Source of the DNA: a virus
Virus record (IMG/VR): IMGVR_UViG_3300032562_000204
Coordinates: 1-20,764 of that record
Direction: 5' to 3' (one strand)
DNA: 20,764 nucleotides
Shown here: positions 2,595 to 17,401 of the stretch, piece by piece
How positions within the stretch are numbered: position 1 is the first letter of the stretch
How the letters are laid out: each line of letters opens with the position of its first letter
Translations under genes and position numbers: made by a program
Notes under the pieces: generated by a model
Seen by the model: only the letters and a program-made list of their open reading frames with translations
Databases searched by the model: none
What the model was told of the DNA's origin: nothing

Positions 2595-3968
2595 ATGGGT
2601 TTTACAGCGGCAGCAGTAGATTTAAGCGCAGGGGCAGCAGCGGCAGTTGATGTCGGTGCGGCAGCAATTGATGCAGGTGCTGCAGCGGCGGCTACAGATG
2701 CAACAGTTGCGGCGGCTACAGATGCAACGACAGTAGGGACTGTTGATGCGGCGGCTACAGATGCGGCAGCAACTACTACAGATGCAACGGTTACAGATGC
2801 GGCAGCAACAGATACAGCTGCAACAACTACAGATGCAGCAGCAACTACTACAGATGCACAAGCTGCAGCTGATGAAGCAGCTCAAACTGCACAATATAAT
2901 GCGAACCCATTTAATGCTAATAATCCTGCACCAGGCGTACAATTAGACCCTTATAGCCCTTCAGGCTGGTCTGATGCATCAGGAAATCCTATCAATCCTG
3001 ATGGTTCTGCATATACGCCTGCGCCTGTTGATCAGCAAGTCATTGATCAAGCATCTCAATCAACTGCTACGCCTACAAACCCTCTTAACCCTGCAAACAT
3101 GGCGGCAAACCAAGTTGCAAGCAAGGTTGTTAACAGCTTATTAACACCTACACAAGTTAAGCAAGCTGCTTTAAATGGTCAAATAGCCAATCCACAGACA
3201 ACAACTTCAACTAGCTCTGGTTCAGGCTCAGTTTCTTCAAGTGGTTCTATTCCTGGTACTTTGTCAGGTACAGGCTTAGCAGGTGCGCCTGTATATGGGT
3301 CAAATTCTAAGATTATTTCACAATTAAAACAAATGTATCCACAATTAAACAATGTGGATCCAAGAATCTTAAACTCTGTTGTAGGTGGTTCATCAGATTC
3401 ACAAGCAAACTCAATGATGCAGTCAGGTATGGGTGCATTAGGTAGTTCAGCTCAAAACCCTTATTCTTCAATGGTTCAGTCATTGTTAGGTGATAGTGGC
3501 GGTTCTAATCCTTCAGCTGGTTTGCCTATTGCTAAAGAAGGTGGCGGAACTAATGACATTCTAAGTAAATGGGCACAAAAGCAAAATGAGCAAGAAGGTA
3601 CTCAGATGATGAACTCTGGGTTAAAGATGCTAGGCGCTACTAATTACAACCTTCCAGGTAATAAAGACGGAGGTCACCAGCATAAGCCAGAATTCATTAC
3701 AGGAGCCACTGGCCATTACGTTAAAGGTAAAGGTGATGGACAATCTGACGACATTCCTGCAATGCTGGCGGATGGCGAATATGTGTTCGATGCCGATACT
3801 GTAGCAGCTTTAGGCAATGGCAGTTCTGATGCCGGTGCTAAGCTCTTAGATCATTTTAGAGAATCACTTAGAGAACATAAGAGATCTGCACCAGTTGATA
3901 AAATACCACCAGCAGCATCGCCTCTTGCTTACATGAAAGAAGCTTTGAAAAGGCATAAACAAGGATAA
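2595..3968 (+). CDS. Large low-complexity virion/ejection-type protein with SDDIPAML motif
   Basis: 457 residues. Residues 5-88 are almost only Ala, Thr and Asp in irregular repeats; the middle is Ser/Gly/Asn/Pro-rich; the C-terminal 100 residues are compact and better conserved in type, with SDDIPAMLADGEYVF at about 383-398 followed by AGAKLLDHFRESLREHKRS. That 'SD.IPAmL..GE.V' phrase is one I know from many phage virion proteins at or near tape-measure or ejection proteins, so I assign a virion role. No catalytic motif is seen. The start is fixed by GGAGTGATATT just upstream. Its position after the GNAT-like trio suggests a T7 gp14/15-like slot, but sequence similarity to those is not visible. 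Confidence 0.65.
   Translation: MGFTAAAVDLSAGAAAAVDVGAAAIDAGAAAAATDATVAAATDATTVGTVDAAATDAAATTTDATVTDAAATDTAATTTDAAATTTDAQAAADEAAQTAQYNANPFNANNPAPGVQLDPYSPSGWSDASGNPINPDGSAYTPAPVDQQVIDQASQSTATPTNPLNPANMAANQVASKVVNSLLTPTQVKQAALNGQIANPQTTTSTSSGSGSVSSSGSIPGTLSGTGLAGAPVYGSNSKIISQLKQMYPQLNNVDPRILNSVVGGSSDSQANSMMQSGMGALGSSAQNPYSSMVQSLLGDSGGSNPSAGLPIAKEGGGTNDILSKWAQKQNEQEGTQMMNSGLKMLGATNYNLPGNKDGGHQHKPEFITGATGHYVKGKGDGQSDDIPAMLADGEYVFDADTVAALGNGSSDAGAKLLDHFRESLREHKRSAPVDKIPPAASPLAYMKEALKRHKQG
2607..2858 (+). repeat. In-frame Ala/Thr/Asp-coding tandem repeat
   Basis: Degenerate short repeats of GCGGCTACAGATGC and GCAACTACTACAGATGC type encode AATDA and AATTTDA units in the N-terminal fifth of the 2595-3968 gene. 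The units vary in length but keep the reading frame. The region probably gains and loses units by slippage. It also creates a spurious Cys-rich open frame on the other strand. Confidence 0.8.
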
Positions 3969-5052: not shown

Positions 5053-6699
5053 ATGGCACTACCAACGGTACTTCCGACACTACCTACAGGGCTTGCAGGT
5101 GACCCTGATGCTCAAAGAGAGTACACAACAGCGCTACAAAAAGTACTGTCGTCATTAGACAATAGAAATAAGACTAATTGGTTTTCAATTGCTGGTCAAT
5201 TATTTGACCCAGGTAGAACAGGCAATGCCGGTGAAGCTATTGGTAGAACAGCTACTGAAGTAGGCAAACAGCAAGAAAAGCAAGAAGAACAAGAGCCTAC
5301 TATTGCAATGATGAGAGCACAGCTTGCAGGTCAAACCTATCAGATTAAAAATGAGGGTAAAGCGCTTGAAGTGCTTGCAGGTGCTATAGGAACAGACCCT
5401 AAGACATTATCAACTCAACTGTCTAATGGCACATTACCACCTGGCGCTATATCTAGAATTACACCAGAGATTATGGCAACAGCTGAGTACTTATCGCCTA
5501 AGGTTGGCTCAATTGCTAAAAACGTGTTTGATATGGAGCTTAAGACTAATCAGGCAGTAACTGAAGATCGTAAAGCTGGCGCAAGCATTGCAGACTTGAT
5601 GGGTAAATACGGTAAAGATAGAGTACTGTCCGTCATAAACCCCTCATCATTACCTAATTCTATGCAGCCTCAAAGTACTGCACCTGCTGCTAATCCACCT
5701 GTTGCTAATACAGCTCCTGCACCTTTAACTAATAATGATGTTGCGCCTGCTAAGAGCCCTATGTCAGGTCGTAACCCACAATTACAGCCTGATCAAGAAG
5801 CACCTGTTAAACGAGTAGGCGGTAGAACTTTAGAAGAAGCCCTTGCTTTAACTAAACAAAACAATCTGAGCCATGGCGTTCCTTTTACAAAAGACGATGC
5901 TGCTATCTTTACACGTAGGTTTAATGGTGCGCCTGCTGACCCTGTAGCGCCTACACCTGCACCTGTTGCACAAGCTGTTCAACCAACGGCAGCACCTGCA
6001 GCTACTGTTGTTGCGCAAAACCCTGATGAAAATTTACCATGGGCAGCGCAAAGTGAAGTTGCAAAGTCAAGGATTGAAAAAGCAGATAAGCTGTGGCAAG
6101 AAAAGAAAGATGCAATTAATGAGTGGGACCCTGAAAAGATTCAAGGCTCAAATAATCGTATTAGAGAAATTCACGATATTGTTAAAGAGAAGCCACAAGT
6201 TGCAGGCTTACTTAAGAAGCAAGGTTTGTTATCTGCATTTGCAAATGCTGCACAAGAAGGCGTTACACTTGGTCAGTTTGGAAACATTAGTGTTCCAACC
6301 GAGAAGTTTATTTCATCGCTAAATCTTAAAGATACAGATCAAAGAGACGCTGCCAGATTAGCAACGCTTCTAAACCAAGAATTCTTAGAGCGGTTTAAGG
6401 CATACAAGTCAACTTTAGGCCCTAGCATATCTAATGCCGATATGATGCTTGGTAAGTCAAGCTTAGTAACACCTCAAGATACTGCAGATGCTATTAAGTA
6501 CTGGTCACAGCATGGACTGGTTGTTAATCATCAACGTGAAGCCTTGTACAACAAAGCATTGCAATATGATACACAATACGGACAGTCTTCAGGTCCACAA
6601 AAGTTCTTTAGCTCACCGTACTATACTGAGACTATCAAGCAGTACCAACCGCTGTATGATCAGTTGATAAAGCAGTCACCACTTTATAAGAGACCATAA
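5053..6699 (+). CDS. Putative internal virion protein (548 aa, two domains with Pro/Ala linker)
   Basis: 548 residues: an N-terminal helical region (about 1-190, charged, with EVGKQQEKQEEQEPTIAMM), a long Pro/Ala/Asn/Gln linker (about 195-330, for example APTPAPVAQAVQPTAAPAA) and a C-terminal helical domain (about 335-548) rich in Lys, Glu, Tyr and Trp. I recognise no named domain. Two folded helical parts joined by a flexible linker, inside a virion cluster, fit a podoviral ejection protein such as those in the T7 gp15/gp16 positions, but this is inference. The ribosome site is AAAGGATAATT before the ATG. Its stop overlaps the next start (TAATG). Confidence 0.6.
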   Translation: MALPTVLPTLPTGLAGDPDAQREYTTALQKVLSSLDNRNKTNWFSIAGQLFDPGRTGNAGEAIGRTATEVGKQQEKQEEQEPTIAMMRAQLAGQTYQIKNEGKALEVLAGAIGTDPKTLSTQLSNGTLPPGAISRITPEIMATAEYLSPKVGSIAKNVFDMELKTNQAVTEDRKAGASIADLMGKYGKDRVLSVINPSSLPNSMQPQSTAPAANPPVANTAPAPLTNNDVAPAKSPMSGRNPQLQPDQEAPVKRVGGRTLEEALALTKQNNLSHGVPFTKDDAAIFTRRFNGAPADPVAPTPAPVAQAVQPTAAPAATVVAQNPDENLPWAAQSEVAKSRIEKADKLWQEKKDAINEWDPEKIQGSNNRIREIHDIVKEKPQVAGLLKKQGLLSAFANAAQEGVTLGQFGNISVPTEKFISSLNLKDTDQRDAARLATLLNQEFLERFKAYKSTLGPSISNADMMLGKSSLVTPQDTADAIKYWSQHGLVVNHQREALYNKALQYDTQYGQSSGPQKFFSSPYYTETIKQYQPLYDQLIKQSPLYKRP

Positions 6700-9208: not shown

Positions 9209-9491
9209 ATCTAACTCCTTGTTTAACTTTGTTTAAATGTAACTCTACTAACCTGGCATAACCTGCAATGTCTGTCCAACTATCCACATGGTCGGGTGAA
9301 ACCGCCAATCTAGATAATTTCATAACAATCTTTGAAAAGAATAAATAGTAGATAGGTGGTAATGGCAGTTTGTACTGATCAAAATACCTACCTTTTATTA
9401 TTTCAAGGATTTGTGCTTCACATGTTATACCCTCAAAAAAATCACCGTAGACCTCTTGGCGGTCTTGCAGAACTTCGTCTATCATTTTCAT
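9096..9491 (-). CDS. DUF6378-like phage protein with overprinted C-terminal tail
   Basis: 131 residues. RQEVYGDFFE at 11-20 and KLSRLAVSPDHVDSWTDIAGYARL at about 58-81 match the pattern 'R...YGd...f' and 'K.aRl...p.h.DsW.DiaGYa' that I associate with the phage family DUF6378; the function is unknown, although an all-alpha MazG-like fold is conceivable. The domain ends by about residue 90. Residues 95-131, basic and Ser/Thr-rich, are encoded in the 113 bases that also encode the start of the ThyX-like protein in another frame. The start has AGGTGAAGCC upstream and overlaps the preceding stop by ATGA. Confidence 0.75.
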   Translation of the reverse strand: MKMIDEVLQDRQEVYGDFFEGITCEAQILEIIKGRYFDQYKLPLPPIYYLFFSKIVMKLSRLAVSPDHVDSWTDIAGYARLVELHLNKVKQGVRYAKSEQESDAAPTKDAYATKVRKQTRTSSVRKPARKH

Positions 9492-15733: not shown

Positions 15734-15869
15734 AATATTCCTTTACATAGTGTTCATACCAACCCCACACAAATAGCCATCTCCACATCTTTTCATCGCC
15801 TAGCTTATTTTCATAATAATACCTAGCTATTTGTAGTGCGGTTTCTTTAGGTGGTTGTTCTTTTCTCAT
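15726..15869 (-). CDS. 47-residue Trp/Tyr-rich microprotein
   Basis: Reads MRKEQPPKETALQIARYYYE..., with DEKMWRWLFVWGWYEHYVKE in the second half: four Trp and seven Tyr in 47 residues. It begins at a TAATG overlap with the lipoprotein gene and ends in an eight-base overlap with the polymerase start, so it fills the gap exactly. The start has no strong ribosome site and probably depends on translation of the upstream gene. It might form one or two amphipathic aromatic helices. No family is recognised; because it directly precedes DNA polymerase, a replication accessory or host-inhibitor role is possible. Confidence 0.65.
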   Translation of the reverse strand: MRKEQPPKETALQIARYYYENKLGDEKMWRWLFVWGWYEHYVKEYYD

Positions 15870-16144
15870 TAGAATAATCTATACTTTGGCATGCATTGCA
15901 CATCAATGATGATATCGCTCATCATACCGCTGATCATACGCTTGGTCATGATCGGAACTGCTCTCATGTTATTGCCTTCACACTCCATAGTGGCTTGTAT
16001 GACTTCATTCCTACTCATTTGCTGAGCACGTGAATCAACTACAAGCTGTACGGTCGGAGGGCTTGCATAAACCGAGGGCTGCATAGTTTGTGGTGGTTGT
16101 GCACAGCCTGCAATAGCTACAATAAACACGACAATATATTTCAT
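15869..16144 (-). CDS. Predicted lipoprotein (91 aa)
   Basis: 91 residues beginning MKYIVVFIVAIAGCAQPPQ: lipobox IAGC (C14) with Ala at +2. A Pro/Gln/Ser-rich linker follows, then a Met-rich segment (NMRAVPIMTKRMISGMMSD) and a C-terminal strand. Two further cysteines (C55, C84) could pair. The start has a strong AAAGGAGACTTT site, and it is the first gene after the structured 128-base gap, so its expression may be set by that element. No family is recognised; an outer-membrane-anchored phage lipoprotein is the best description. Confidence 0.65.
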   Translation of the reverse strand: MKYIVVFIVAIAGCAQPPQTMQPSVYASPPTVQLVVDSRAQQMSRNEVIQATMECEGNNMRAVPIMTKRMISGMMSDIIIDVQCMPKYRLF

Positions 16145-16272
16145 AAAGTCTCCTTAAAGGTGGGGCGGTTCACATAAAGCAGTGTTTTGTACAATTTCAC
16201 CGTCAACTTACATAAAAAACGTTTGCTGATAATGATATACGGCGCTAACCCGTATGACCGCCCCGTAAACTA
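16145..16272 (-). ncRNA. Structured gap: candidate three-way-junction RNA or regulatory element
   Basis: This is the longest non-coding gap in the minus operon. It contains nested inverted repeats: an outer arm GGGGCGGTTCA (16162-16172) against TGACCGCCCC (16255-16264); a hairpin ATACGG-CGCTAAC-CCGTAT (16237-16255); and a second arm AGCAGTGTTTT (16178-16188) against AAAACGTTTGCT (16216-16227) with a small internal loop. The three can coexist apart from one shared base at 16255. A TTGTACAA palindrome lies at 16188-16195. No T-run follows any hairpin, so a simple intrinsic terminator is unlikely. It could be a leader RNA of the lipoprotein-polymerase segment, a processing site or a replication origin. 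Confidence 0.45.
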
Positions 16273-17016
16273 TCAATACTTACTAGATTGTGCAGGAATT
16301 GCAGATGCCTCATCTTCTACAGCACCGGCTGAGTCAATAGCATTTTGCAACTCTTTCTCACCACGTGCAATTAAAGCTTTAATCACATCCATGTCATCAA
16401 TTGTGCGCACAAAGTCAAAGTTAAGCTTAAACTGTGTTTTTGCATCAGGTGTAAGACTAATCTTAGTCACTACGGCTGATAAAGGACGCTTAGTAGCATT
16501 GGCAACCTTTTGTAAATAGACTGCAAATGGTTTAACCGATGTAACGGGTGTTCTTAAAGCCGCAACCTCTGCCATAGCAATGCTATCAACCGATGTGATT
16601 GAATCAGCTGTCATAATCAACAGTCTACGCTTCTCACTACAGGCTTTACCTTTACCACCGTTTGTGGCGCTACCCCATTGGTCTTTAGGGCAACCTTGGC
16701 AAGTATCACATTGCTTTTCAGGCGCCAATGGATTAGGCTTAAGGCTTGTCATTGTCGGACCTAAGGCAAAGCATGCAGGTGGTGCAGGATTAGTTGGGTC
16801 GTATCTGCTTGTGTAGTACAACCGCTCAACAGGGCTGGAAATGATCACTACATCTATGGCATTCCCTGCAATAGGGTTATCCTTATATGTAAGTGTTCCG
16901 CCCTTTGTACTAAGGAAGGATGTACCAACAGAGTTCTTCTCTGCCTGCAAACCAGCATTAGCCAGCTTTTCCATTTCTGATTCGAATACCGTAAGTGAAT
17001 TTTGTGTTTTAGCCAT
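16273..17016 (-). CDS. Four-cysteine phage protein, probable ssDNA-binding protein
   Basis: 247 residues. A beta-rich N-terminal half (AIDVVIISSPVERLYYTSR) contains an inserted cysteine cluster, CDTCQGCP at 103-110 plus C126 in GKACSEKRRLL, able to bind zinc or an Fe-S cluster; a helical/beta C-terminal half ends in a loosely acidic tail (GAVEDEASAIP). I recall 'C..C..CP...wGs...GkgkaC...R.L' proteins in phage replication modules, where they are suspected single-stranded DNA-binding proteins with an OB-like fold. That role fits its place upstream of DNA polymerase but is inference. The ribosome site is AGGAGTTTCTAA. Its stop is followed by the structured gap. Confidence 0.55.
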   Translation of the reverse strand: MAKTQNSLTVFESEMEKLANAGLQAEKNSVGTSFLSTKGGTLTYKDNPIAGNAIDVVIISSPVERLYYTSRYDPTNPAPPACFALGPTMTSLKPNPLAPEKQCDTCQGCPKDQWGSATNGGKGKACSEKRRLLIMTADSITSVDSIAMAEVAALRTPVTSVKPFAVYLQKVANATKRPLSAVVTKISLTPDAKTQFKLNFDFVRTIDDMDVIKALIARGEKELQNAIDSAGAVEDEASAIPAQSSKY

Positions 17017-17026
17017 TTAGAAACTC

Positions 17027-17401
17027 CTATTTTCGTGACTTAGTTAACGTTAACCCCCAAACCTCAGCAGTGGTAGCCCCGGGGATGGACTCACCTTCTT
17101 TCCAACGGTCCTGGAAAGCAGTACTGCTAAGTCTTCTATGCAATAGGTCAAAGCTTTTTGTGCTACTGACATAAGCATAAAACTGATCCCAATCCACTAT
17201 GGTTGGGTGTACCTTCTTAGCCATGGTGACACTATGACCAGCCTCGGACATTGCTTTAAATGTACCAGCCTCGTTCATAGCATGCATAATGTCGCCTTCT
17301 ATGGCTGCAATCTTTTCATTAATTATTTTTTCTTGCTTACCAAGATCCTCTTTTTGTTGTTTAAGGTCTCTTAGTCCGTCAATGAGTTGTGAAATGTTCA
17401 T
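17027..17401 (-). CDS. Coiled-coil phage protein of unknown function (124 aa)
   Basis: 124 residues. The first 45 form a coiled coil (LRDLKQQKEDLGKQEKIINEKIAAIE). The remainder contains KKVHPTIVDWDQFYAYVSST, FDLLHRRLSSTAFQDRW and GESIPGATT, a layout I have seen in small phage proteins adjacent to single-stranded DNA-binding candidates; no function is established. It lies between dCMP deaminase and the four-cysteine protein, with AAAGGATTTCAAT as its ribosome site and an ATGA overlap upstream. Confidence 0.65.
   Translation of the reverse strand: MNISQLIDGLRDLKQQKEDLGKQEKIINEKIAAIEGDIMHAMNEAGTFKAMSEAGHSVTMAKKVHPTIVDWDQFYAYVSSTKSFDLLHRRLSSTAFQDRWKEGESIPGATTAEVWGLTLTKSRK

Follow-up and report, generated by a model that had tools for sequence, protein, structure and literature searches.

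A predicted kissing-loop RNA family carried between gene contexts by mostly uncultured phages and Burkholderia-type prophages

The locus and the fold of its RNA

The window, the whole 20.8 kb stretch of DNA analysed here, is IMG/VR virus record IMGVR_UViG_3300032562_000204. It contains a gap between two genes of a replication operon (Table 1). Since the genes near this gap (16145-16272) are all encoded by the minus strand, it is the minus-strand RNA that matters. No minus-strand open reading frame of at least 40 amino acids overlaps the gap. In the order of transcription, the RNA is followed by a 91-aa lipoprotein-like gene, a 47-aa ORF and a DNA polymerase gene. The 91-aa protein has no Pfam or PHROG match. 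Lipoprotein-like proteins of about 85-95 aa are common in these phages (window 15869-16144; L014-L094), with the invariant core QQMSRNEV..., SGM.SDII.DVQCMP. Two further genes of the window deserve mention. Homologues of the 17027-17401 product (Xp15 gp41) are annotated as a 'minor head protein' (PHROG 13900); this label is doubtful, since the protein also matches the Mu Gam-like family and DUF7307 and its gene sits among replication genes. In the structural gene region, the 457-aa product of 2595-3968 has, close to its N-terminus, a long low-complexity stretch of Ala/Thr/Asp repeats.

When both strands of the gap were folded against shuffled sequence, as an earlier note on this DNA had suggested, the minus strand reached -37.2 kcal/mol (z = -2.73; 3 of 200 shuffles equally good), better than shuffled sequence and than the weaker plus-strand fold (-30.3, z = -1.74). 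The minus-strand MFE structure combines P1 (8 bp), P2 (6 bp), an interrupted helix P2b and a small P3. The family model, CM R1, matches at 16149-16275 on the minus strand with 65.6 bits (E 5.6e-20), which, together with the very strong covariation described below, bears out the earlier proposal of a structured RNA at 16162-16264. The perfect 6-bp hairpin with a 7-base loop was recovered as P2; the outer helix, given as 10 bp, has 8 contiguous pairs in the window. The proposed three-way junction exists, but its invariant arms are P1, P2 and P3, joined by a loop-loop contact. The second, interrupted arm of that proposal, P2b, is present in the MFE fold; it belongs to the variable joiner J2/3 (folded alone, z = -2.5) as a local addition, confined to the window phage and its near-identical copy and with no consistent counterpart in the family. 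The P3 hairpin and the P2-P3 contact had been overlooked; in the latter, A16246 pairs with U16178, G16245 with C16179, C16244 with G16180 and G16243 with U16181. With the local P2b insertion in the joiner added to the invariant junction of P1, P2 and P3, the RNA of the window has four helices. Between 16000 and 16500, no T-run, intrinsic terminator (GC hairpin plus T-run) or sigma-70-like promoter was found, in agreement with the earlier remark that a terminator T-run is lacking.

Table 1. Features of the RNA and its surroundings in the window
Feature	Position	Strand	Remarks
Intergenic gap	16145-16272 (128 nt)	minus-strand RNA considered	between the 247-aa and 91-aa genes
247-aa gene	16273-17016	minus	PHROG 27714, function unknown; upstream of the RNA in transcription
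91-aa gene	15869..16144	minus	ORF; lipoprotein-like; accompanies the RNA, downstream of it
Extra segment	15734..16272	minus	RNA + 91-aa gene + 47-aa ORF; absent from L002-L012 relative to the window
Whole RNA module, P1 to P1'	16162..16264 (103 nt)	minus	CM R1 match and MFE fold
P1 5' strand, GGGGCGGU	16257..16264	minus	pairs with 16162-16169; 8 contiguous pairs
P1 3' strand, ACCGCCCC	16162..16169	minus	pairs with 16257-16264
P2 hairpin, AUACGG-GUUAGCG-CCGUAU	16237..16255	minus	perfect 6 bp; 7-nt loop GUUAGCG
P2b interrupted helix	16197..16235	minus	in variable joiner J2/3; MFE
P3 hairpin, CAC-UGCUUUAU-GUG	16171..16184	minus	MFE; family comparison
Kissing strand in P2 loop, 5'-AGCG	16243..16246	minus	co-changes with partner at 16178
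Kissing strand in P3 loop, 5'-UGCU	16178..16181	minus	pairs with AGCG of P2 loop; GGC:GCC co-variants
Shine-Dalgarno AAGGAG of the 91-aa gene	16150..16155	minus	6 nt past P1'; from sequence

A covarying RNA family in phages and prophages

Members of the family are about 85-125 nt long. The pattern GGGTTAGCNCC...ACCT...AAGGAG recovered 21 loci, for the most part clear homologues, and GGGTTAGCNCC-N15-45-CACTGCTTNATGTG recovered at least 120 viral stretches in IMG/VR and six bacterial contigs. Eight candidates (L096, L098, L101, L104, L107, L111, L289 and L291) were judged by eye to be chance pattern matches and rejected. The window carries P1, P2 with loop GUURGC, P3 with loop NGCY, the near-invariant letters and the kissing strands.

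Compensatory changes in homologues, the other check that had been proposed, are abundant. In an alignment of 53 sequences (A2, the first, made without structure), covariation was 0.456 compared with 0.160 in the control; in the CM-aligned set of 104, which unlike A2 is biased towards the structure, it was 0.581 compared with 0.145 after shuffling (0 of 500 shuffles; slid controls at most 0.146), with 92.3% of cells paired. Double-sided changes are seen at 19 of the 24 pairs in these 104 members (P1 10/10, P2 6/7, P3 2/3, kissing 1/4). In 94 of 96 dereplicated members the two P1 strands pair in runs of 6-19, whereas swapped partners mostly give 2-4. G-U pairs outnumber A-C mismatches by 91 to 4 in P1, with the register set from Watson-Crick pairs alone, and by 40 to 11 in P2. 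This asymmetry shows that the strand given here, minus in the window, is the transcribed one and that the element acts as sense-strand RNA.

The P2 stem co-varies under a near-invariant loop, GUUAGC. P3 is invariant in the pattern-selected set; its stem changes from CAC/GUG to CGC/GCG in seven members and to CAU/AUG in one. At the loop-loop pair corresponding to 16246/16178, six aligned members replace A-U with G-C, and L275 and L276 combine loop 1 GGC with loop 2 GCC in place of AGC with GCU. When loop 1 was fixed as GGC and loop 2 left free, the true members recovered all had GCC (L284=L288, L285, L286, L287, L290). A scan for AGC opposite any letter but U gave a single match, L291, which lacks matching stems and was judged chance. 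With AGC:GCU present in more than 120 members, these counts give clean two-by-two support, at the level of sequence, for a predicted contact between the P2 and P3 loops; the two inner kissing pairs are invariant across the family and are assigned from geometry only. Comparison across the family shows one fold, in which P1 encloses side-by-side P2 and P3 with kissing loops (AGC:GCU) and a variable joiner between them. The P3 of L276 (CACUGCCGUAU) resembles a type I-F CRISPR repeat, a likeness dismissed as chance since the common form UGCUUUAU lacks it.

The length of J2/3 varies between about 15 and 56 nt, and folding is not a general property of this joiner (mean z -0.4). CUCCU is enriched in it, occurring in 13 members compared with 1.2 expected, though the window lacks the motif; AGGAG is found in none, compared with 2.8 expected. 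UCCU/CUCCU, frequent in the joiner, could pair with ribosome-binding sites. Pairing in cis with the downstream Shine-Dalgarno (SD) sequence (CUCCUAA/UUAGGAG in L124 and L153) did not exceed partner-swapped controls, and an antisense match to the phage's own locus was unconvincing (longest match 7.6 versus 6.9 nt).

The six bacterial contigs belong to Curvibacter, Achromobacter, Variovorax, two beta-proteobacterial/Burkholderiales MAGs and one Armatimonadetes MAG. Sampled genomes with the RNA numbered 8 of 401 in one Burkholderiales family and 4 of 399 in Pseudomonadota, three of these four being weak. Phage-type genes (CI repressor, primase/helicase, terminase, portal) lie near the bacterial copies, which suggests that most of these are prophage copies. 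The copy of Curvibacter sp. CHRR-16 (L300, near 6274-6341) adjoins a gyrase A gene and may lie outside any prophage. Achromobacter dolens (G039 C12:67701-67906) has two tandem copies about 100 bases apart. A search of 40 whole records found a single copy in 36 and two copies in three.

Searches against known RNAs and DNA were largely empty. None of the 4227 families of Rfam 15 matched the window or 11 further loci at the curated gathering thresholds, relaxed E values gave chance-level hits to Clostridiales-3 and SAH only, and the purine riboswitch model (RF00167) matched neither the window nor other loci. Neither tRNA nor tmRNA turned up in the window or at 12 loci. Cultured phages and plasmids held no convincingly similar DNA, a weak match in a Rhizobium plasmid (E 0.07) included, and R1 had no match in 40-kb stretches of Xp15 and Rollin. 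In the literature searched, which covered a minority of subscription papers and preprints, the core sequences matched twice, both times in papers on unrelated topics. The structured-RNA family, found in well over 100 mostly uncultured phages and in Burkholderia-type prophages, is absent from Rfam.

Genomic contexts and exchange of modules

Comparison with relatives indicates that the RNA is an insertion in the window. In eleven records whose 247-aa proteins are 69-76% identical, the 247-aa gene abuts the DNA polymerase gene directly; the gap, the RNA, the 91-aa gene and the 47-aa ORF are all missing at the site, and no copy of the RNA was found in the whole contigs. Where the 91-aa gene occurs at other places (L016-L022, L032-L034, L040, L085), the RNA lies upstream there too, and in L014/L015 the gene is preceded by a diverged but recognisable RNA (19.3 bits). 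These empty sites and relocated pairs indicate that RNA and gene travel together.

Contexts were counted over 93 non-redundant viral members. In 25 of them P1 is preceded, at a distance of 5-8 nt, by the end of a -10 hexamer, which places P1 at the inferred sigma-70 transcription start; about 0.7 were expected (control 0.8%). An SD sequence with a start codon follows within 45 nt of the RNA in 41 (control 15%). The start codon commonly lies 15-25 nt past P1', before genes that are unrelated: downstream products include Gam-like, DNA-binding, terminase-like, ACP-like and glutaredoxin-like proteins, several of these names coming from sequence reading. Six prophage copies (L292-L294, L296-L298) have a GC-rich hairpin and U-run after P1, although the viral set shows no excess of terminators after the RNA (8 of 93; background 6%). 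P1 was rejected as a family-wide terminator, with U-runs directly past it in just 7 of 127 members. Some copies sit inside noncoding clusters with further structured elements. The placement in such unrelated contexts shows the RNA to be context-independent and mobile.

Other RNA folds occupy the same or an equivalent operon position. In L078 and L084, a different RNA (RNA-2: GAAAGCGGAUG...GCAGCGAGUA) takes the site between the 247-aa and 91-aa genes, and these contigs have no copy of the present family (RNA-1). RNA-2 also precedes an SD-ATG in L063 and occurs in the clusters of L136 and L144. It forms a second structured-RNA family (GAAAGCGGATG...GCAGCGAGTA), closed by GGGG/CCCC or GTTGG/CCAAC, with loci at L078:1223-1355, L084:283-395 and L136:793-910, and further ones in L063 (minus, near 2519), L144 (minus, near 9431) and L091 (near 1878). 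A third fold occurs in the cultured Xanthomonas phage Xp15 (L303:19845-19935), where a leader between the helicase and Gam-like genes has a -10-like TACAAT and a long helix, ATGGTTGAGTGCAGCCC/GGGCTGCGCTCAACCACCAT, at about the likely +1; its interior is unlike the window RNA.

Long noncoding clusters were noted at L145:4900-5900, L136:570-1400, L225:13000-13699, L188:2650-3800, L205:9300-10300 and on the minus strand of L151. Among the several more structured elements in them are a hairpin, ACACGCATGGGGATTG...CAGTCCCCAGCCGTGT, others whose sequence recalls the T-arm of a tRNA (GGGTTCGAAACC and similar) but which ARAGORN does not call, and some with terminators at their ends.

Possible roles and relation to known systems

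Copies that precede unrelated genes, lie within noncoding clusters or stand free argue for an autonomous noncoding RNA over an operon-specific control element. The reading we favour, with moderate confidence, is that of a mobile, phage-borne structured RNA whose likeliest role would be that of an accessory acting in trans on host or phage gene expression. Its single copy, the empty sites in relatives, the cluster copies and the prophage copies with terminators favour a trans-acting RNA, and its absence from the contigs of the eleven relatives with an empty site points to its accessory nature. On the other side, J2/3 is no more complementary than controls to the leader downstream of it or to the locus of its own phage, and the CUCCU enrichment is confined to a minority that excludes the window.

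Such an RNA would be a self-contained functional domain made in one of two ways. In the first, it would have its own transcription start, its 5' end being sealed by P1, and P1 or a subsequent terminator would close the RNA; in the second, it would be carried in, or cut from, a longer transcript, as in the window, where the 247-aa and 91-aa genes flank it. A host factor shared by Burkholderiales would most likely dock at P2 and P3, which form a rigid pair with near-invariant loop letters, leaving the joiner free to vary, often with UCCU/CUCCU. More speculatively, and with low confidence, this would be a new class of mobile phage RNA whose rigid kissing-loop scaffold might recruit an RNA-binding protein of the host, or a component of its ribosome, and display a variable single-stranded segment, often mimicking an anti-SD sequence, to reprogram host translation or block defence; it would then be one of several interchangeable modules (RNA-1, RNA-2, cluster RNAs) serving as RNA accessory genes of freshwater phages.

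The main rival, which we hold to be possible though doubtful, is a cis-acting 5' leader that caps phage mRNAs: P1, starting at +1, would deprive RppH/RNase E of a single-stranded 5' end, and the compact kissing fold would stabilise the message or control how the next gene is translated. In its favour are the position at +1 and the distance to the SD sequence; the frequency of an SD sequence and start codon closely after the RNA suits it, and E. coli mRNAs are stabilised by 5'-terminal stem-loops (Emory 1992, Bouvet and Belasco 1992, listed among the references of PMC3997798). Other folds at equivalent places, namely RNA-2 in L078/L084 and the Xp15 helix before a homologous gene, are also in its favour. 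However, there is generally one copy per phage rather than per operon, free-standing and cluster copies exist, and near-invariant loops would be superfluous for a plain stabiliser. A leader RNA, as suggested by the earlier note, fits the promoter-bearing part of the family; in the window no promoter is detectable. Both the trans and the cis reading could hold together, if the leader were released as a small RNA.

Two rivals appear very unlikely. A ligand-controlled leader of purine-riboswitch-like architecture would share the global layout (three helices, P2 and P3 loops kissing) and, in part of the family, the 5'-leader position; yet the junction letters are not conserved, J2/3 varies greatly in length, the downstream genes share no pathway, and there is no terminator, SD-masking switch or Rfam purine match. 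SD-masking as such found no support. An equally improbable proposal, a signal for RNA processing or replication (nuclease site, antitermination element or RNA-primed origin), was raised by the earlier note and draws on the position of the window copy among replication genes, but copies also adjoin terminase, portal, repressor and other genes and occur in noncoding clusters, and relatives with the same operon have no copy; the antitermination-like element, RNase III site and replication origin are left without support. A self-cleaving ribozyme was rejected for lack of any supporting sign; in the promoter cases P1 starts at +1 and leaves nothing upstream to cleave. Least credible of all is that the feature is a chance fold or acts at the level of DNA, as an inverted repeat serving as a cruciform or protein site. 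Such repeats may generally have roles in DNA, but no result here points there, and the G-U excess and loop-loop covariation contradict it.

A folded RNA with strong covariation in its helices and loop-loop pair, present in at least 120 phage stretches and in none of the Rfam families, marks a sizeable gap in the phage RNA catalogue. Its exchange with other folds at one operon position suggests swappable RNA accessory modules of phages, similar to protein morons. The copies in Burkholderiales genomes (Curvibacter, Variovorax and Achromobacter among the named contigs) allow expression, structure and partners to be tested directly in culturable strains.

Among known systems, the purine riboswitch (RF00167) and its 2'-deoxyguanosine relatives come close in architecture, with three helices, side-by-side P2 and P3, a loop-loop contact and often a 5'-leader position. 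The phage RNA has the loop-loop contact, as its change from AGC:GCU to GGC:GCC indicates, in architecture alone; it differs in lacking the conserved ligand pocket in the junction, in its long variable J2/3 and other loop letters, and in its unrelated downstream genes, with no purine-gene link and no Rfam match. The 5'-terminal stabilisers of the ompA and papA leaders place a helix on, or only a few bases from, the start of transcription. Part of the family may do so too, with a promoter-inferred start at P1 in 25 of 93 members, the window having no detected promoter. Those stabilisers are single operon-specific hairpins, whereas the phage RNA is a conserved kissing-loop fold that appears to move between genes and phages. 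GOLLD and ROOL are likewise structured noncoding RNAs of uncultured, often lake-derived phages. They are multidomain and many hundreds of nucleotides long; the present family is far shorter and has no Rfam match. Phage- and prophage-encoded small RNAs, reviewed in PMC12197685, resemble it as short phage RNAs, some of its copies having their own promoter or terminator. The family described here differs from them by a widespread conserved tertiary fold outside any Rfam family.
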